A DNA stretch of 64,000 bases, taken from contig NZ_JAMQOP010000007.1 in NCBI RefSeq assembly GCF_031624495.1, positions 1-64,000 of the forward strand, given 5' to 3'. The notes beneath the pieces are model-generated. The model saw only the letters and a list, made by a program, of their open reading frames with translations. It had not been told where the DNA came from and did no database searches. The DNA comes from Halogeometricum sp. S1BR25-6. GTDB lineage: Archaea; Halobacteriota; Halobacteria; Halobacteriales; Haloferacaceae. Made by a program: the position numbers and the translations under genes. This document shows positions 3,725 to 24,694 of this stretch, one piece after another. Positions within the stretch are counted from its first letter, which is position 1. Each line of letters starts with the position of its first letter.

Positions 3725-4669
3725 ATGGCAACGAGAGACATCTACGAGAGTGATTTCGACGAAGACGTATCGACGGATAATACGACGGCGTGCCCAGAGT
3801 GCAACGGACGAGTCAGAACGAACACAGCAGAGACAAACTGTGAAGACTGCGGGCTCGTTATCGACGAACAACAAATCGACCACGGACCAGAGTGGCGGAC
3901 GTTTGACGGCGAGGAGTCCTCCAATAAACGAACGGGGGCACCACTCACCGTGGCACGTCACGACCGCGGTCTCTCGACCGAAATCGGACGCTGGCGAGAC
4001 GCAAGTGGAAACCAACTCTCAGCACGAAAACGCCGACAGCTCGGCCGACTACGTCGAGAACAGCGCCGGGGCCGGTGGCGGTCGAAAAGTGAGCGGAATC
4101 TCGCGCACGGCTTGGGCGAAGTCCGTCGGATCGCGAGTGCGTTGGGACTCTCGGAGACCGTTCGTGATCAGGCCTGCCAGCTCTTCAGAAGCGCCAAGCA
4201 CGAGGACCTCCTTAGGGGTCGGTCAATCGAAGCGATCGCCGCAGCGAGCGTCTATGGCGCGTGTCGGTGCAACAGCTCAAGAGTGGCGCGAAGTGAAGTC
4301 GCTGAAAGAGCACAGGTCGAACGAAGTAGGGTTGTGAACGCATACAAGACGCTGAATACAGAGCTTGGGCTGCCGGTCAGTCCGGTCACACCCCGGTCGC
4401 TCATCCCGCGGCTGTCTTCGGAGCTAGCGGTTGAGGATGCTGTTCGGCGACGAGCACTCGAACTGGCAGAGCGGGCGCACGGTTCAGCCATCGCAAACGG
4501 GCGTCAGCCAGCAGGGGTTGCTGGCGCTTGCGTCTACATCGCCTCGCAAGAGTACAGACGAGGACTCAGACAAACGGACATCGCGGAGGTCGCTGGAACA
4601 ACTGCAGCGACGCTTCGTGCTCGACGCGACGAACTCTTGACGACAATCGATTCAGAGGACTCAGCGTAG
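3725..4669 (+). CDS. tfb: Transcription initiation factor IIB (TFB)
   Basis: 314 residues. N-terminal zinc ribbon (CPEC at 23-26, CEDC at 39-42), then the B-finger/linker region (GPEWRTFD, TGAPLTVARHDRGLSTEIG), then two cyclin-like repeats (about 125-210 and 225-305). TFB recruits RNA polymerase to TBP-bound promoters. Haloarchaea have many TFBs; plasmid copies act as alternative factors for gene subsets. It is preceded by the shared T-run/CCC-GGG element, so it could control its own block. Full length and apparently intact. Confidence 0.93.
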   Translation: MATRDIYESDFDEDVSTDNTTACPECNGRVRTNTAETNCEDCGLVIDEQQIDHGPEWRTFDGEESSNKRTGAPLTVARHDRGLSTEIGRWRDASGNQLSARKRRQLGRLRREQRRGRWRSKSERNLAHGLGEVRRIASALGLSETVRDQACQLFRSAKHEDLLRGRSIEAIAAASVYGACRCNSSRVARSEVAERAQVERSRVVNAYKTLNTELGLPVSPVTPRSLIPRLSSELAVEDAVRRRALELAERAHGSAIANGRQPAGVAGACVYIASQEYRRGLRQTDIAEVAGTTAATLRARRDELLTTIDSEDSA

Positions 4670-10192: not shown

Positions 10193-10636
10193 ATGAACAC
10201 GCGGTGGATCTCGTTTGTCCGAAATGCTACCCTTGCGACGGTACTCCTTACGGGGTTGTATGGTCTTCGAGCGGTGGCTCCACTTGGTACCGTTCTACTT
10301 ATGTTCAATCCAGTGCGTGTTACGACGATACTGTGGATAGTCTACCCAGAAGCCTTCGAGCCAGTGGTGTTTATCGCAGAACTCTTTATTCTCGGACTGG
10401 TTGGTACCACTGCCGCTCACCTTGTTCATAGATGGGCAACCGACGCCCAACATGCCAGTTGGCATCTCGGCGTGGCTGGTGCTCTCAGTATAGTAGGTGT
10501 CCACTGGGTAAAGTGGGCAATTAAGTTCGCCGGTACGACCCACACCGATACAGCCCCGGTTGTTATTACGGGTGTTTCAGGATTGATACTGCTTGGGCTG
10601 GCCGGGTGGTTCGCTGGTAGTGGGACACAGAAGTGA
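10193..10636 (+). CDS. Four-helix membrane protein inside the IS
   Basis: 147 residues with about four hydrophobic segments (about 12-40, 57-75, 90-110, 123-141). No family recognised. It lies between the transposase stop and the right terminal repeat of the element, on the same strand as the transposase. Its AT-richer codons differ from nearby high-GC genes. It could be a passenger gene or an older gene captured between IS ends. Confidence 0.6.
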   Translation: MNTRWISFVRNATLATVLLTGLYGLRAVAPLGTVLLMFNPVRVTTILWIVYPEAFEPVVFIAELFILGLVGTTAAHLVHRWATDAQHASWHLGVAGALSIVGVHWVKWAIKFAGTTHTDTAPVVITGVSGLILLGLAGWFAGSGTQK

Positions 10637-13994: not shown

Positions 13995-15273
13995 CTCAGC
14001 TTTGCACGTTGAAGTAGGAGCGTGACATAGTCGGTGGCAAGGACGGATGATGCCGATTACGGACTTCTTGTCGTGCATGCACGTGTTCGACGAGTTCGAC
14101 TCGCTCTCACCGGAGCAACAACATCACGCCAAAGCCTACGCCACAGGTCTTGTTGCGGCCCGCAACAAGACCGTGGCGGGCATCGCACGCGAAGTTCTTC
14201 CAGCCAACAGCAAACGCGCCCTCAACAAGTTCCTCACCGAGTACGACTGGGACGAACAGCAGCTCAACCACGAACGTCTTGAGGAACTCCAGAAACACGG
14301 TGAAACGCGCTGGTCGAAGGACGGCCACATCATCCTCGACGACACGATTACCGAGAAAGCCGGGGACGAAGTCCCCGGCGTCGGCCACTTCTACGATCAC
14401 GCTGAAGGCGACACTGTCTGGGGCCAAGACCTCATCTACGCCTTCTACGCTGACGACAAAATGGCCTATCCGCTCACCTTCCGCCTCTATGAAAAACAGG
14501 ATGAAGATGACCAAGACCACGGCACCAATGTACGATCTCGCCCGCGAGATCGTCACCGAACTCGAAGAAGAGGTAGGTGTCCGCAGGCACACCTACCTCT
14601 TCGACTCGTGGTTCGCCCACGATTCTGGCCTTCCCGAACACATCGAATTCTACGGCAAGGATTGGATCGGCCCGCTCCGGAGCAATCGCAAGGTGACCTA
14701 CGGCGGCGAAGAACTCCGCGTCGATGCGCTGGAAGAGCGCATCGACACGGTTGAGCACGATGTCGATGACGAAACCTACCATATCTGGACGAAGAAGCTT
14801 CCCGTCTTCCAGCTGGGAGACGGGAAGCTGGTTATCGCCGGGAAAGAGACTGATGAAGACGAGGAGAATCCGGTCAAGTACCTCGCCACAAACAAGATCG
14901 ACGCACCGACCGAGCACGTGATTCGCTCCTACGGGATACGGTGGCGCATCGAGACGTTCTTCGAGGACTCGAAGCAGGATCTCGGCCTAGGAGACTGCGA
15001 GATGCAGACTGACGAAGGTGCCAGTCACGACTGGCACCTTCTGATGGTTGCCTACAGTCTCGTTCGTCTTGATCCAGAGTTGAGCGCCTTGGGGACGGTT
15101 CGCCCGAAGCGATGACGCTTTCGAGCGAACCTCGAGCACTCCCTGAAAGAAGCAGTCTACAACCTCCTCACGTGGGTTTGGGACAACGATGATCGGGGCG
15201 TCGATGATCTCATGAACGAGATTGACCACCTCTTTGTTCGCTCAACAGCCTGACGCTAACGTGCAAGGCTGAG
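13995..15273. mobile_element. IS701-like element, decayed
   Basis: Terminal inverted repeats CTCAGCTTTGCACGTT (13995-14010) and AACGTGCAAGGCTGAG (15258-15273, one mismatch when reversed) bound a 1,279-bp element. TTA occurs directly outside both ends and may be a target duplication. The single transposase gene is broken, so the element can move only if a transposase is supplied in trans. Confidence 0.75.
14047..15253 (+). pseudogene. Broken DDE transposase (IS701-like)
   Basis: The first frame covers MMPITDFLSC to LYEKQDEDDQDHGT with HIILDDTITEKAGDEVPG (catalytic region). An extra T near 14530 shifts to the frame continuing YDLAREIVTELEEEVGV, FDSWFAHDSGLPEHIEFYG and IRWRIETFFEDSKQDLGLG. An in-frame TGA at 15113 then interrupts before the natural end EIDHLFVRSTA. 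Two lesions make it a pseudogene. IS701/DDE_5 assignment is by motif similarity. Confidence 0.8.
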
Positions 15274-15474: not shown

Positions 15475-16176
15475 ATGGTGACCCCGAAAGTCGAAGATTA
15501 TCTGAAGGCGATATACTACCTTCAGGACGGAGACATCCCGGCCGCGTCATCCGAGATTGCGTCCGCGATAGGGGTCAAACCACCAACCGTGACGACGATG
15601 TTGCAGCGAATGGACGACGATGGTCTCGTACATTACGAGAGTTATCAGGGTGCTCGTCTCACCGAGCGTGGTGAGAAGGGGGCGCTCAAAGTGCTCCGCA
15701 ACCATCGGCTACTCGAACTCTTCCTGACCGAGGAGCTCGGATACGATTGGGCAGAGGTACACGACGAAGCAGACGTCCTCGAACATCATCTGAGCGAGAC
15801 GTTAGTCGAGCGAATCGAAGTGCTCCTCGGGTCGCCTGCGGTAGACCCACATGGAGAACCGATTCCTACTGCCGACCTCGAAATTCGAGAATGCGAGACA
15901 CAGCAGTCGTTAGCGGAGTGTCAAGAGGGAACGGTTGCGGTCGTTTCTGAGGTGCGAGAAAGCCGCGCAGACGTTCTATCGTATCTTGCGAACTCTGGGA
16001 TCTCGCTTGGAACGGAACTCGAAGTGGTCGAAACCGCGCCATTCGGGATGATCACATGCAAAGTGAGGACGACAGAGAAACCGCTCTCGCTCCCGACTGA
16101 TGTCGCTGCAGACATATACGTATCACGGCCTGCTGAACCGGCCGAAAGCGAACAGAGACAGTACAACGAGGCGTAA
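15475..16176 (+). CDS. DtxR/MntR-family metal-dependent regulator
   Basis: 233 residues. N-terminal winged helix (VEDYLKAIYYLQDGDIPAAS, ASAIGVKPPTVTTMLQRMDD), a dimerisation/metal-binding domain (LFLTEELGYDWAEVHDEADV, LEHHLSETLVERIE; the E-x-x-H and H-H residues are typical ligands), and a C-terminal FeoA/SH3-like domain from about residue 150. It represses metal uptake or homeostasis genes when Fe or Mn is bound. It heads an operon with a multicopper oxidase and a ZIP transporter. Confidence 0.9.
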   Translation: MVTPKVEDYLKAIYYLQDGDIPAASSEIASAIGVKPPTVTTMLQRMDDDGLVHYESYQGARLTERGEKGALKVLRNHRLLELFLTEELGYDWAEVHDEADVLEHHLSETLVERIEVLLGSPAVDPHGEPIPTADLEIRECETQQSLAECQEGTVAVVSEVRESRADVLSYLANSGISLGTELEVVETAPFGMITCKVRTTEKPLSLPTDVAADIYVSRPAEPAESEQRQYNEA

Positions 16177-16179
16177 TAC

Positions 16180-17442
16180 ATGCCTTCACAAGATTATTCA
16201 CAAGCAGCAAAGTTATCAGAGAGATTGGAGCAACGACTAGTAGACTCGCTCGAATCGGATTTCAAGACCACTCGACGGGCAGTTCTCGGGGGGCTTGGTC
16301 TCGCAGGGAGCGCCGCTCTCACTGGAATCGGACGGGCAGACAGCGACGAGCATCATGGTCCAGGAGAGGATTCACACGGAAATTTCGGTGCGACCGGAGA
16401 ATATAGCGACACGGACTTTGACCCACACGAGTTCCTCTACCAGTTCAACACAGGCCGTGGTGAACAAAAGAACGTCCCGCAGGACGTCTACGAGGAGAAC
16501 GGCCGAACCGTTCGGGAGTTTACCTTCCAAGCGGTCGATACCACCGTTAGCATCGCCCCTGGCATCGAATTTCCGGCATGGGCCTACAACGGCCAGGTAC
16601 CCGGCCCGACCATTCGAGCCGTCGAGGGCGATCTCATTCGTGTGAAGTTCGAAAACCTCGGACGACACGCCCACACCATCCACCCGCATCTCCGGAACCT
16701 CAATCCGGAGATGGACGGGATCCCGCAGAACGGACCGGGCGTCCTCAATACGGGTGAGTCGTTCACGTACGAGTGGATCGCTCAACCCGCAGGCGTCCAC
16801 TTCTATCACTGTCACTCGCTCCCGCTGAAAGAGCACATCCACCGGGGACTGTACGGGGCAATCATCATCGACCCAGATCCGGATCGTGTCACCCAGCGAC
16901 CAGAGGAGTACTGTGACTTCCACCGCTCGCAGATCACCGACGAACTCCGTGCGGAACTCGTCGCCGAGGCGAAAACGCGGAATCACGAGTACGCCGAGAA
17001 CGACCCCATCAACGAGATGGTGATGGTGATGAACGGCTTCGACACCAACTTCGACGGCGGCAACGAGGTGTACGCCGCCAACACGCGGGCGTTCGCCTAC
17101 AGCGTCGGCGAGACCGACGGCCGAGGGAACTGGAAAGCCGGGGAGACCAAGCGCCCGATCCAGATCGACGGCCAGCAGCGCCAGCGAGTCTACCTGGCCA
17201 ACGCGACGGAGTTCGACCTCATCAATTCGTTCCACACCCACTCGCAGTTCTTCGACTACTACGACCACGGGACGACACTGACGCCGACGCTCCAAACGGT
17301 GGACACGGTCATGCAGTGTCAGGCACAGCGTGGTATCATCGAGCTGGACTACTCCGATCACGACCCGGGACTGTACATGTTCCATGCCCACCAGTCAGAG
17401 TTCGCTGAACTTGGCTGGATGAGCTTCTTCGAGGTGGTCTAA
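16180..17442 (+). CDS. Tat-exported multicopper oxidase
   Basis: 420 residues. Tat signal TTRRAVLGGLGLAGSAALTG (RR at 32-33). Two cupredoxin-type domains: the first with HAHTIHPH, HFYHCHS and KEHIHRGLYG, the second with SFHTHSQFF and MFHAHQSEFAELGWMSFFEV, giving the copper-binding histidines. The short two-domain form resembles nitrite-reductase-like multicopper oxidases; a ferroxidase or metal-oxidising role fits the operon. Four bases after the DtxR-type gene and directly abutting the transporter gene. Confidence 0.85.
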   Translation: MPSQDYSQAAKLSERLEQRLVDSLESDFKTTRRAVLGGLGLAGSAALTGIGRADSDEHHGPGEDSHGNFGATGEYSDTDFDPHEFLYQFNTGRGEQKNVPQDVYEENGRTVREFTFQAVDTTVSIAPGIEFPAWAYNGQVPGPTIRAVEGDLIRVKFENLGRHAHTIHPHLRNLNPEMDGIPQNGPGVLNTGESFTYEWIAQPAGVHFYHCHSLPLKEHIHRGLYGAIIIDPDPDRVTQRPEEYCDFHRSQITDELRAELVAEAKTRNHEYAENDPINEMVMVMNGFDTNFDGGNEVYAANTRAFAYSVGETDGRGNWKAGETKRPIQIDGQQRQRVYLANATEFDLINSFHTHSQFFDYYDHGTTLTPTLQTVDTVMQCQAQRGIIELDYSDHDPGLYMFHAHQSEFAELGWMSFFEVV

Positions 17443-18678
17443 ATGAGCAAACCAAACACTGACGGCGACACGACTGTGAACCAAACTGAGCGCCCGCTGG
17501 GACTTCCGAAGTGGGCTGCAGCACTACTCCCAATCCTCCTGCTCGCACTCATCGCAGGTGGGTTCTTCGCGACGGCGCCGTTCGCGTCGCTCGACAACGG
17601 TGGTGCGCCACTCCCCGACGTGTCGGTGACGCATACGACCCTGCCGAGCGAAGAGACCGTCGTCCTACACGTCACGAATAACGGTCCGGACGAAGTGACT
17701 ATCTCACAGGTGCTGGTCGCAGAAGCCTACTGGGACTTCGATGTGCAGGGCGCAGGCGGTGATAACACACTCGCTCCTCGTGAGAGCGCACAGGTCGTCA
17801 TCCCGTACCACTGGAACCCAGGCTGGGACCTCGAGGTGGCCCTGCTGCTCTCGGACGGTGCAACCGTTCACCACACCATCATCGCCCCCAGCCAGTCACC
17901 GGGCCTGACGACTGACCTACTGGTGACGATGGCTGTCATCGGCCTGTTCGTCGGCGTCATCCCCGTCGCACTCGGGATGCTGTGGTTCCCATTCCTGCAA
18001 TCGATGAGTGACCGCTGGCTCCACGCGATTCTCGCCTTCTCGGCGGGTATCCTCGCGTTCCTCGCTATTGATGCCGGGTTCGAGGCTTTCGAACTCGGTG
18101 AACAAGTGCCGGGCGCGTTCGAGGGGCCCGCCCTCGTCGCGCTCGGAATCATTGGCGCACTTCTCGCCGTTCAGGCCGTCAGCGCGTGGCGACAGGGCCG
18201 TGCGGAAGCAGGTGATGCGCGTGCCCAGAGCGGTCTGTGGGTTGCCTACCTGGTTGCGCTCGGAATCGGCCTCCACAACCTCGCCGAGGGGCTCGCCATC
18301 GGGAGCTCGTTCGCACTCGGGCGCGTATCGCTCGGGGCGTTCCTCGTCATCGGCTTCATGCTTCACAACGTGACTGAAGGGCCAGCTGTCGTCGCACCCG
18401 TTGCACGTGGTGAGCGTCCGAACGTCCTCCACTTCGTCGGTCTGGGGTTCATTGCAGGTGCTCCGGTCATCCTCGGTGGCTGGCTGGGTAGCCTTGCCTT
18501 CTCGCCGACGCTCGGGGCGTTCTTCCTCGCTGTCGGCGTGGGGGCGATCCTGCAGGTCATCTGGGAACTTCGAGAGATGGTCAGTCGGAATGGACGCGTC
18601 GGTTCTGCGCTGAATCTCGTGACGTTCCTCGTCGGACTTGTCGTGATGTACGTCACTGACCTCTTCGTCGCACTCTAA
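17443..18678 (+). CDS. ZIP-family metal transporter with extracytoplasmic domain
   Basis: 411 residues. One N-terminal membrane helix (about 24-45), a beta-rich extracytoplasmic domain (about 50-150) and a ZIP-type membrane domain with about eight helices. The transport motifs HNLAEGLAIGSSFALG and HNVTEGPAVVAPVA are visible. ZIP proteins bring Zn, Fe or Mn into the cytoplasm. Starts on the base after the multicopper oxidase stop codon, so translation is probably coupled; regulated with the upstream DtxR-type gene. Confidence 0.85.
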   Translation: MSKPNTDGDTTVNQTERPLGLPKWAAALLPILLLALIAGGFFATAPFASLDNGGAPLPDVSVTHTTLPSEETVVLHVTNNGPDEVTISQVLVAEAYWDFDVQGAGGDNTLAPRESAQVVIPYHWNPGWDLEVALLLSDGATVHHTIIAPSQSPGLTTDLLVTMAVIGLFVGVIPVALGMLWFPFLQSMSDRWLHAILAFSAGILAFLAIDAGFEAFELGEQVPGAFEGPALVALGIIGALLAVQAVSAWRQGRAEAGDARAQSGLWVAYLVALGIGLHNLAEGLAIGSSFALGRVSLGAFLVIGFMLHNVTEGPAVVAPVARGERPNVLHFVGLGFIAGAPVILGGWLGSLAFSPTLGAFFLAVGVGAILQVIWELREMVSRNGRVGSALNLVTFLVGLVVMYVTDLFVAL

Positions 18679-18706
18679 ACCCCCTGAACTAACCCTTATA
18701 CAATCG

Positions 18707-19117
18707 ATGAATCGACGACAAATGCTCAAACTCAGTGGAAGCGCTCTTTTAGCAACGGCAACCGCAGGTTGTTCGTCCAACAGCAACCCCGACGGGACGA
18801 CACGTGTCTCGATGAACGAAGACTTCGCGTTCGATCCAAAGACGCTCACTGTAAGCGCCGGGACAACAGTGAGATGGGTGAACGATAGCGATGTCGGACA
18901 TACAGTGACGGCCTACGGGGATAGGATACCAACAGAGGCAGTGTATTTCGCTAGTGGAGGATTCGAGTCTGAACGAGCCGCACGAAACGACGTGAGTGGA
19001 GGGCTGCTCGCTACCGGTGATACGTACGAACACACCTTCGACGTCACTGGGACGTATGAGTATGTGTGTATTCCACACGAAGGCTCAGGGATGACAGGTA
19101 CTATAACGGTCGAGTAA
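18707..19117 (+). CDS. Halocyanin-like blue-copper lipoprotein
   Basis: 136 residues. N-terminus MNRRQMLKLSGSALLATATA followed by the lipobox cysteine (AGCSS), then a cupredoxin domain with copper ligands: H in DVGHTVTAYG, and C, H and M in EYVCIPHEGSGMTG. A membrane-anchored electron carrier, here perhaps the partner of the multicopper oxidase upstream. It follows the ZIP gene by 28 bases. Confidence 0.85.
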   Translation: MNRRQMLKLSGSALLATATAGCSSNSNPDGTTRVSMNEDFAFDPKTLTVSAGTTVRWVNDSDVGHTVTAYGDRIPTEAVYFASGGFESERAARNDVSGGLLATGDTYEHTFDVTGTYEYVCIPHEGSGMTGTITVE

Positions 19118-21097: not shown

Positions 21098-21148
21098 TTT
21101 TTCACCCCCAGAGGGGTGCGGGGGTGTTCGAACGAGCACCCCGCGAAC
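21098..21148 (+). promoter_or_regulatory. T-run/CCC-GGG element with hairpin
   Basis: GTTTTTCACCCCCAGAGGGG continues into TGCGGGGG and then a GGGGTG-n-GCACCCC stem-loop. The T-run is about 54 bases before the ATG at 21155. Very similar to the elements before tfb and before 24008. Confidence 0.55.
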
Positions 21149-21154
21149 AGAACT

Positions 21155-21559
21155 ATGAGTTGGACAAGTGATTCACAGTCATCTGGAACGTCACACACTT
21201 CGGATGAGACCGACGTCGTCTACGTCGGCTACCGACAGCGAGGCCGCGCAATCGTCGAAAAGTATCCTGGCCGCGAACCGCTGACCCCAGATCGGAGTCT
21301 CAAGCTGGCGGACCACAGTCCCTCGGGCTTCGAATGGGGGTACAGGGGGAGTGGCCCAGCGCAACTCGCGCTCGCCCTCCTGCTCGATTACACCGACGAC
21401 GAGGACGTCGCACTAGCGGAGTACATGGCGTTCAAGAACGAAGTAGTGAGCCGATTGGAGTGTGGTGGTCCCAAACAGCGCTGGCGACTCACAGGACACG
21501 AGATAGATTCGGCCCTTCGTGAGACAGTCGACGAGCCAGTCGCACCGTCCGTCAGCTAA
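21155..21559 (+). CDS. DUF6166-family protein
   Basis: 134 residues from MSWTSDSQSSGTSH. The core reads VVYVGYRQRGRAIVEKYPGR, LTPDRSLKLADHSPSGFEWG, then GSGPAQLALALLLDYTDDED. It is paralogous to the first half of the gene at 24008. DUF6166 proteins are small, widespread and uncharacterised. The in-frame ATG at 21116 is rejected because it lies inside the hairpin leader. Confidence 0.75.
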   Translation: MSWTSDSQSSGTSHTSDETDVVYVGYRQRGRAIVEKYPGREPLTPDRSLKLADHSPSGFEWGYRGSGPAQLALALLLDYTDDEDVALAEYMAFKNEVVSRLECGGPKQRWRLTGHEIDSALRETVDEPVAPSVS

Positions 21560-22165: not shown

Positions 22166-23392
22166 TCATGGCTCGGTTACAGGGAGCTCCCACGAAAGGA
22201 TCACTACTGAACCAACGATGAGGACAACTCCTCCGGCAGCTAGCGCAAACAGTGGGGACACATAGTCCGAGAGAACACCGCTCCCAAGTTGAAATGGAAT
22301 GACGGCTAAGCCGCTGACCATCGCCATGGCGCTCAACACGGTTGCGCGTCCGAGCGTTTCGATTTGGTTGTTAACGTACTGTCCAGCGAACGACCGCGTG
22401 ACGTCCGAGAGCCCTCGAGCGACGAGGAACGTCGGAAGCGCGAGTATGGGAACAAAGTACATCCCGACCAGTGCTGCACCGACGATGAATGGCAGGATGA
22501 TGAACCACGTCTGGATACCGATGAACTCCTTGATCGCGCCAGTATAGTAGCTGAGTACCGCACCGACGAGACTGTACGCTGCGTAGAACCACCCCAGAAG
22601 TGATTCGACTTGTCCAGGGGAGACGCCTAAATCGACAACGACGGTCTGGAAAATCGGCTGGAGAAAGACAAACACGAGGTACGTCACAGCGGCGTAGAGG
22701 ACGTAGTAATAGAGAATGAATGCCCTGAGATTCCGTTCGGAAAGCGCCTCCTTGACGATACCAACGGTTCGGCGGAAGCTCAACTCGTCCGTGTCTGTCT
22801 TTTTGTACGTTTCAGGTTCGTCTAGTGTCAGTAGTACCACGGCTCCGAACCCAGTAACTGCAGCTGCGACGAACCACGGGTACGAGAGATCGATACTCCC
22901 GAGATACCCGCCAACAATGGCTGCACCAGCACCAACCGCGAGAGCTGCAGATTCTCCTCGCCCTCGAACGTGTGCGAACTCGTCTTCCGAGAGGTCGTCT
23001 GTGAGCGTGTCGTGCAGCCACGCATCCTCACTCCCGGATCTAAAGTTGTACCCCGCAGACCAGCAGACATAGAGAACCGCCAACGCGAAAAACGACTCAG
23101 AAAGGCCAATCCCAAGGAGCGTTACAGCAATCAGCACCGTCCCGATAAGAAGACTATTCCGTCGACCAACGCGATCTCCGATGTACCCCGTCGGTATTTC
23201 ACCGAGTAATGTGGTTAGATTGTATATCGCTTCGAGAATGGCGATTTGGGTGAAGTTGAGTCCCTGTGCCAGGAAGAAGAGGTACATAATCGGCCGGTAG
23301 AATTCGACCGCTTTGGCGGATTTGTAGAGATAGTATTTGATGATACTACCAGGTGCGGACGCATTCCAGAGAGACCCAGAGAGACGACCCAT
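22166..23392 (-). CDS. MFS transporter, divergent from nikR
   Basis: 408 residues, about 12 membrane helices. The MFS loop 2-3 motif is visible as GEIPTGYIGDRVGRRNSLL. N-terminal segment KYYLYKSAKAVEFYRPIMYL. The substrate is unknown. It is divergently transcribed from a NikR-type regulator with only about 100 bases between the two starts and a 30-bp palindrome in the middle, so it may be a nickel- or cobalt-related exporter or importer (inference from context). Confidence 0.82.
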   Translation of the reverse strand: MGRLSGSLWNASAPGSIIKYYLYKSAKAVEFYRPIMYLFFLAQGLNFTQIAILEAIYNLTTLLGEIPTGYIGDRVGRRNSLLIGTVLIAVTLLGIGLSESFFALAVLYVCWSAGYNFRSGSEDAWLHDTLTDDLSEDEFAHVRGRGESAALAVGAGAAIVGGYLGSIDLSYPWFVAAAVTGFGAVVLLTLDEPETYKKTDTDELSFRRTVGIVKEALSERNLRAFILYYYVLYAAVTYLVFVFLQPIFQTVVVDLGVSPGQVESLLGWFYAAYSLVGAVLSYYTGAIKEFIGIQTWFIILPFIVGAALVGMYFVPILALPTFLVARGLSDVTRSFAGQYVNNQIETLGRATVLSAMAMVSGLAVIPFQLGSGVLSDYVSPLFALAAGGVVLIVGSVVILSWELPVTEP

Positions 23393-23429
23393 TATTCGAA
23401 CATCGATAAGAGAGACTCAATTACGTTCC

Positions 23430-23459
23430 GTTATTTTGATTCTGAGGAATCGTAATAAC
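23430..23459. promoter_or_regulatory. 30-bp imperfect palindrome, NikR operator candidate
   Basis: Left arm GTTATTTTGATTC and right arm GAATCGTAATAAC around TGAG match at 11 of 13 positions. It is centred between the divergent MFS and nikR-type genes, 37 and 34 bases from their starts. The size and the outer half-site spacing resemble known NikR operators (two half-sites separated by about 16 bases). Confidence 0.65.
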
Positions 23460-23493
23460 AGGGTCCTAAGTAGCTCTCAACGTAAGATCGAAT

Positions 23494-23886
23494 ATGCGAA
23501 CGAGCCTCAACGTTCCACAGGAGGTGCTCGATTCATTCGACGAGACGTGGAAGTCAGAGGGGATGGAATCACGGTCACGAGCCGTCCGTGAAGCGATGCA
23601 AGAATACATCGAGCGCCACACTCGCTTAGAAGAGATTGAAGGAGAAGCTGTCGCGGCAATAGCGTTCGACTACGAACATACACTCGTCATTGGAGAACTC
23701 CATACAATTCAGCACGAGTTCGAGGACGTCATTGGAACGACCCAACATATGCACCACGGGGACTGGTGTCTGGAGACCATTTTCTGCACCGGTCCCGCAA
23801 ATCGGATTCGTGAGTTAGTGTATCAACTCCGGGATTTCGATGCTGTTGGGCGTGTGAACGTCATGTTCCTCCAGCCTGTAGCCTGA
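23494..23886 (+). CDS. nikR: NikR-type nickel-responsive regulator
   Basis: 130 residues. N-terminal ribbon-helix-helix (MRTSLNVPQEVLDSFDETWK, RSRAVREAMQEYIE) followed by the ACT-like nickel-binding domain. Likely ligands are H74, H85, H87 and C92 (in TTQHMHHGDWCLETIF), matching the His/His/His/Cys site of NikR in order and nearly in spacing. It should bind DNA when nickel is present and probably controls the divergent transporter and itself through the palindrome between them. Confidence 0.85.
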   Translation: MRTSLNVPQEVLDSFDETWKSEGMESRSRAVREAMQEYIERHTRLEEIEGEAVAAIAFDYEHTLVIGELHTIQHEFEDVIGTTQHMHHGDWCLETIFCTGPANRIRELVYQLRDFDAVGRVNVMFLQPVA

Positions 23887-24007: not shown

Positions 24008-24694
24008 ATGAAGACGGATTCGACCGACTATCCCAGAACAGACGTACAGACTGCGAGCGACCCCTGCCCGACGAACAGAGACGAAGTCGAGTATGTGGGG
24101 ATGCGCGTCGACGACAGACCGGTCGTACTCAACCTCACCGAACACGAGCGACTCGTCCCCGACCGAAGCCTCAGTCTCGTACGACAGCACCTGTCGGGAT
24201 TCGAGTGGGGCGACACTGGTAGCGGTTCGGCACAGCTCGCCTGTGGACTCCTCCTCGATTACACCGACGACGAAGCCGTTGCCTCCCAACACTACATCCA
24301 GTTCCGCGATGACGTGGTGAGCCAGCTGGAGTGCAGTGGACCAGCCAATTGCTGGCATCTCACCGGCGACGACATCGAGGCCGCACTCGCGGGTGTCACC
24401 AAGCACGAAGCACTCACGCCGGATGGTGGAACGCCAACCCCGTCACTTCCAGTAAACTGGAGTGCCGTGAATCGGTCAGAACGGACAGTCTTCCAGCGGC
24501 GAGACATCGACCACTACGTCGTCCTCGGTGAAGGGACCGAGAAGTGGCTGCTCCTACTCTGTGCCCAGGGCGACCGTGCGTATCCCGCCCCACTCGATAT
24601 ACGAACAGTTCCGATTGAGGAGGATCCTGCTCCCGCCGTGCGGGAACTCGTTGCCGAGAGCAACGACCTCGTCAAGCCGGAGGAGGATGCGTGA
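24008..24694 (+). CDS. DUF6166 protein with C-terminal extension
   Basis: 228 residues. The first 125 are a DUF6166 domain similar to the 21155 gene (EYVGMRVDDRPVVLNLTEHE, GSGSAQLACGLLLDYTDDEA). The second part (about 150-228) is a separate small domain with HYVVLGEGTEKWLLLLCAQG. Function unknown. First gene of a tight three-gene unit: its TGA overlaps the next ATG, and that gene in turn overlaps the Mom-like gene. Confidence 0.75.
   Translation: MKTDSTDYPRTDVQTASDPCPTNRDEVEYVGMRVDDRPVVLNLTEHERLVPDRSLSLVRQHLSGFEWGDTGSGSAQLACGLLLDYTDDEAVASQHYIQFRDDVVSQLECSGPANCWHLTGDDIEAALAGVTKHEALTPDGGTPTPSLPVNWSAVNRSERTVFQRRDIDHYVVLGEGTEKWLLLLCAQGDRAYPAPLDIRTVPIEEDPAPAVRELVAESNDLVKPEEDA

Follow-up and report, generated by a model that had tools for sequence, protein, structure and literature searches.

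Two genes diverge from a gap of exactly 101 bp at positions 23393–23493 of the window, our term for the whole 64-kb stretch of DNA that was analysed. On one side lies the gene for an MFS transporter of 408 aa (22166..23392, minus strand), recognized by its open reading frame, Pfam matches and a fold model; on the other is a nikR-family gene encoding 130 aa (23494..23886, plus strand), recognized by its open reading frame, Pfam domains RHH_1 and NikR_C, and alignment. The gap holds a 30-bp palindrome at 23430..23459, a feature without strand that we regard as a putative operator from its sequence and its conservation in MFS relatives. It reads GTTATTTTGATTC-TGAG-GAATCGTAATAAC, and its arms are complementary at 11 of 13 positions, just the imperfect palindrome that a preliminary description of this DNA had reported; the placement midway between the two starts also held up, the distances being 37 nt to the MFS start and 34 nt to the nikR start. 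The two half-sites are GTTATTAC, read from 23459 on the minus strand, and GTTATTTT, read from 23430 on the plus strand. The strong arm, GAATCGTAATAAC (23447..23459), carries a TATTACGA core and has a half-site score of 12.6, and the weak arm, GTTATTTTGATTC (23430..23442), scores 2.4. Promoter elements probably lie on either side. For the MFS gene the BRE/TATA region, GGAACG followed by TAATTGAG (23416..23429, minus strand), adjoins the palindrome and is assigned from spacing and partial conservation; for nikR the TATA-like promoter element, CCTAAGTA (23465..23472, plus strand), 22–29 nt before the start of the gene, is assigned from position and conservation, with ACTTAG conserved on the other strand.

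The regulator matches Pfam NikR_C at 64 bits (cut-off 22) and RHH_1 at 23.4 bits (cut-off 20.5), and it aligns with the solved NikRs of Pyrococcus horikoshii (3e-13), Escherichia coli (8e-6) and Helicobacter pylori (6e-6 and weaker). In an alignment that leaves out the row of locus L109, residues H74, H85, H87 and C92 match the His/His/His/Cys positions of the E. coli and P. horikoshii proteins, which we take to be the four metal ligands of NikR; the identity proposed earlier for this gene is sound at the level of the family. Compared with the NikRs of E. coli and P. horikoshii and with cbiM-linked NikR, the window protein and its closest relatives lack one residue in the stretch from HxH to Cys, and the window protein falls under every NCBIfam NikR cut-off, coming closest with 94.8 of 111 bits (PRK01002). 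From these scores we class it as a divergent NikR-family member rather than a certified NikR equivalog; three plasmid records label the regulator merely a CopG-type protein. The organism's own genome has three further NikR-family genes. One, whose product is 66% identical to the window protein, is divergent from a nicO-type gene; another, 30% identical, is divergent from cbiM (PF01891, 6.3e-61); and the fourth family member is 32% identical. Below, NikR1/2 denotes the window type together with the 66% type.

The transporter has an MFS_1 domain (82.7 bits, cut-off 33.4), and its model has the MFS fold (pLDDT 83.7). A fold search of the PDB found generic MFS proteins only, the best at a TM of 0.72 and 12% identity, so no substrate can be read from the fold; a sequence search of solved structures found none related. 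Many relatives are plasmid-borne. A second copy in the same genome (locus L008, 2293-3519) is 79% identical and sits beside a P-type ATPase-type gene, the product of which has a histidine-rich N-terminus; upstream of this copy there is only one clear half-site (CTGTAATAAC), a one-sided form also seen upstream of several Halorubrum MFS copies. When 49 named haloarchaeal loci with the MFS gene were examined, 19 had a NikR match nearby: seven are directly divergent, two divergent with nicO between, nine tandem downstream and one convergent, with the regulator genes of L014 and L038 matched partly or in two pieces. At L014, from Halorussus aquaticus, only the first 31 nikR residues match (3808-3900) and the operator and MFS gene are intact, possibly a natural truncation of the regulator.

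The surroundings have features of their own. Related genes flank the MFS–nikR pair on both sides (window 21116-21559 and 24008-24694, one of them DUF6166), and likewise in Haloparvum (L013, 2700-3479 and 5834-6277), as if the pair were cargo within a repeated gene. A run of metal genes on the plus strand (15475-19117) includes a DtxR/MntR-type regulator with a FeoA domain, a multicopper oxidase, a ZIP-like transporter (below cut-off) and a plastocyanin-type copper protein. A frame-shifted DDE-type transposase gene (14047-15115, plus strand) contains five near-perfect inverted repeats with 13-nt arms (14144-14174, 14567-14602, 14716-14750, 14795-14830 and 15012-15043), and its sequence, treated as RNA, gives a much better fold than 20 shuffled versions do (z -7.7).

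Taken alone, the palindrome is only mildly unusual and is weak evidence. When the 101-bp gap was shuffled 3000 times with its dinucleotides kept, 50 of the shuffles contained an equally good or better one (13-nt arms, at least 11 matches, spacer 0–10), and across the 64-kb window the same criterion gives 48 matches, many of which are a single place read at shifted positions. A search of the organism's own genome for the exact palindrome pattern gave no match beyond itself; a half-site search there gave 7 forward and 8 reverse matches, nearly all with two mismatches, as against 2 forward and 2 reverse for a reversed-pattern control. At 10562 the window has a second motif match (score 17.6), which appears coding by eye and was rated as chance. 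What makes the site convincing is its conservation in relatives, not the palindrome by itself.

When eight divergent loci were aligned, the longest run of invariant columns fell in the palindrome. For the wider comparison we used a half-site matrix trained on eight 31-bp sites from nikR loci, all eight with nicO present and none with an MFS gene, a set chosen to keep the MFS test non-circular; near-duplicate upstreams, those sharing over 90 of their final 100 bases, were removed before counting. At a score of at least 9, a cut-off picked after looking at the data, 45 of 53 distinct upstreams from MFS relatives (at least 66% identity) carry the site. Dinucleotide shuffles of these upstreams reached that score in 36 of 1060 cases, and background windows drawn from the same named loci in 7 of 1241. 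At a score of at least 15 the corresponding numbers are 27, 3 and 0. The passing best matches of L031 and L044 are out of register, and in the sub-threshold upstreams of L015, L049 and L008 a site or half-site is recognizable by eye. More distant MFS proteins have the site in 5 of 20 upstreams. Among 33 sites of 30 bp, which span 15 named genera, conservation at the individual positions is 88–100% in the core TATTACGA and 79–100% in ATAAC at the far end. The consensus over relatives is (G)TTATTAC-N14/15-GTAATAA(C). Over these relatives the architecture is that of a NikR operator; in the window one arm fits it well and the other poorly.

The site is not confined to MFS genes. As expected of a NikR operator, it also stands upstream of nickel transporter genes, preceding nicO (in L021 and L038) and cbiM. 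Other nikR genes were scanned over 300 bp upstream, with a score of at least 9 counted as a pass. Where nicO is near, 12 of 13 nikR genes pass; nine of those 13 loci supplied or repeat motif sites, and three of the other four pass, the fourth, which fails upstream of nikR, having the site before nicO itself. All three nikR genes with an MFS gene near pass, as do 14 of the 16 in the cbiM-type set, exactly the loci where cbiM was found (in one, L139, the best match is off register); in the single NikR1/2 locus with cbiM the site fails. Among nikR genes with no nicO, cbiM or MFS gene in the fetched stretch the site passes once in 13, so it follows transporters, not nikR. We also considered autoregulation of nikR as a general rule and rejected it: 12 of these 13 transporter-less genes score below 9.0 and the last, L121, counted here as the one pass, scores exactly 9.0. 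With two of 73 loci left out, NikR1/2 is encoded somewhere in the genome for 46 of 49 site-bearing MFS loci and 12 of 22 site-less ones (Fisher 2e-4, kinship uncorrected), and among close MFS relatives for 42 of 44 and 4 of 8, respectively (0.003, kinship uncorrected). The exceptions are three site-bearing loci with no NikR1/2 detected in the genome and 12 site-less loci with it.

A further gene enters through the same motif. In L024 (5675-6061), L026 (5779-6165) and L031 (5690-6076) the site lies 33–34 nt before the start of a DUF7475-type membrane gene (Pfam match 27.4 bits, under the cut-off of 31.3), a candidate new regulon member. The palindrome recurs at matching MFS and nickel/cobalt transporter genes in many species and is therefore very probably a shared metal-control switch. 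In our judgement it is very likely the operator of a haloarchaeal NikR-family regulon that includes nicO, cbiM and the DUF7475 membrane gene. The preliminary description had called it a NikR operator serving the nikR–MFS pair; what stands, by comparison of sequences, is a conserved site common to nikR-linked nickel/cobalt transporter genes, and the predicted regulon is wider than that pair.

How does the site compare with NikR signals already described? The delta-proteobacterial signal, in the available text of its description, is GTGTTAC-[N13/14]-GTAACAC, with GTaTTAC at one site (PMC545781). Shared features, from the same text, are an inverted repeat some 28 bp long, half-sites whose inner ends read TTAC/GTAA, a spacer that varies by one base, and a position upstream of nik/cbi-type transporter genes. 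The haloarchaeal site differs from the signal excerpted there (PMC545781) in its half-site, (G)TTATTAC or GTATTAC, its spacer of 14/15, its archaeal promoters and its targets, which include MFS, nicO and DUF7475 genes. Some cbiM promoters (L137–L152) have AATAATAC or GTAATA in place of GTATTAC at one or both half-sites, recalling the reversed NikR half-sites of Desulfotalea psychrophila given in that text (PMC545781). The E. coli operator is reported as GTATGA-N16-TCATAC (PMC7055735). It shares with ours about the same half-site distance, a nickel transporter target and an RHH regulator that is encoded divergently and has the ligand set in common; it differs, as far as the available text goes, in its half-site and in its target, the importer NikABCDE, with export under RcnR (PMC7055735). 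A literature search with most subscription journals outside it returned no paper that deals with NikR sites in haloarchaea or with an MFS protein under NikR control.

The preliminary description had held that MFS proteins are not known as nickel transporters, and here it needs correcting. NreB is an MFS Ni2+/H+ antiporter that confers resistance, a role based on deletion and heterologous expression in the available part of the report (PMC9195940). Like the window protein it is an MFS protein tied to nickel, and it is plasmid-borne, as are many of the window protein's relatives; according to that part of the report, nreB of S. mirabilis is close to the gene for an ArsR-family regulator (KmtR), not NikR (PMC9195940). 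Our comparison of the two proteins is by model and description rather than by direct sequence, and TIGR00900, the model reported for NreB, is absent from the 10 NCBIfam matches of the window protein at 1e-3, from a library that may lack the model. A 2009 survey, in its available portion, lists Nik/CbiMNQO, NikABCDE and NiCoT as archaeal nickel/cobalt transporter families and CbtX as a predicted cobalt transporter (PMC2667541).

We think it probable that the window MFS protein moves a metal; Ni2+ is most likely the metal of the regulator, with Co2+ possible. As to direction, a search of the organism's own genome for urease and NiFe hydrogenase found neither. Across 195 genomes of the order, one or other of these nickel enzymes occurs in 2 of 27 with a close MFS relative and in 58 of 168 others (p=0.003, kinship uncorrected), whereas NikR1/2 occurs in 23 of the 27 and 87 of the 168 (p=0.0013, kinship uncorrected). 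Nickel supply for urease was tried as the purpose of the circuit and rejected: NikR1/2 is present in 28 of the 47 genomes with urease and in 82 of the 148 without it (p=0.74). Since the genome has neither enzyme and the MFS gene is rarer where nickel enzymes occur, the evidence leans toward efflux, a reading that draws also on the paralog beside the P-type ATPase gene and on the existence of MFS nickel exporters. The NCBIfam matches of the nicO proteins are to nickel/cobalt efflux models, very weak ones (PRK10019, 17 to 26 bits of 195). On balance we favour a nickel/cobalt efflux pump.

The position of the site relative to the start codons bears on the sign of control. Of 16 distinct MFS sites, 13 lie 36–38 nt from the start, and 9 of 13 nicO sites lie 34–38 nt from it, the organism's own nicO gap being 33 nt on a favoured start two codons inside the query start. 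At cbiM the gap is 23–28 nt in 9 of 13 sites, with three more at 33 nt and one off. If transcripts are leaderless, as we assume, the cbiM site would cover the TATA element, and the MFS and nicO sites would lie just upstream of BRE/TATA. In archaeal promoters a regulator seated over TATA suits repression, and one just upstream of BRE/TATA allows activation. The MFS and nicO sites are about one helical turn further out than most cbiM sites, and opposite regulatory signs are therefore hinted at. That metal-loaded NikR activates the MFS gene is a tentative proposal, to which we give somewhat less than an even chance. A fuller version, in which metal-NikR over the cbiM TATA represses import and, one turn upstream, recruits basal factors and so activates the MFS and nicO exporters, is more doubtful.

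The picture we lean to, slightly, is thus of an operator of a NikR-family regulon serving an MFS metal exporter, with the sign of control left open. A metal-loaded NikR tetramer would bridge two TATTAC-type half-sites; these adjoin the BRE/TATA elements of both divergent promoters, so nikR and the MFS gene would be controlled together, and the MFS protein would export the metal. Judged from spacing, metal-NikR might shut off cbiM and stimulate the MFS and nicO genes. Against this picture, NikR with metal bound is known above all for repressing import, and a repressed exporter would fit badly with that. The first alternative is that the MFS protein imports Ni2+/Co2+, or a chelate, and that metal-NikR, by keeping TFB/TBP off the two promoters, represses both the MFS gene and nikR. 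NikR is indeed a metal-dependent repressor of nickel import in the available account (PMC7055735), cbiM, which encodes an importer, has the same site, and on either side the operator borders BRE/TATA. Cobalt uptake for B12 might be a use. We find this alternative possible, if on the unlikely side, because the genome has no urease or NiFe hydrogenase and nickel enzymes are fewer in genomes with a close MFS, because its cbiM already has a NikR of its own, and because the MFS site lies farther from its gene than most cbiM sites do from theirs.

The sub-cut-off NCBIfam scores and the shorter metal loop mean that the metal may differ. The regulator could be NikR-like in form and sense Co2+, Cu+ or Zn2+, with the MFS protein handling that metal or a complex of it, and copper-type neighbours at some loci (a P-type ATPase, DUF326, ArsP with YHS), together with the multicopper oxidase/halocyanin cluster in the window, point the same way. 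This we consider unlikely: all four ligand positions are kept, and the steadiest partners of the site are the nickel/cobalt transporter families nicO and cbiM. A palindrome that arose by chance or belongs to an unrelated regulator, as its poor arm and the shuffles might suggest, is very improbable, given an almost invariant core in 15 named genera, a motif trained on other genes that finds the site, and a site that is rarer where NikR1/2 is missing.

For the haloarchaea, the favoured reading of a regulon operator with an MFS metal exporter supplies a testable consensus for NikR-family sites, and it would connect metal homeostasis with an MFS family that is often plasmid-borne and with a membrane protein of the DUF7475 type. 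The contrast in spacing between import promoters and presumed export promoters bears on the way in which a regulator in archaea might change its sign. If the reading of that spacing as opposite control is true, the MFS proteins would be a new family of archaeal nickel/cobalt exporters, and NikR would be the induction switch of haloarchaeal metal efflux, the job that RcnR does in E. coli.
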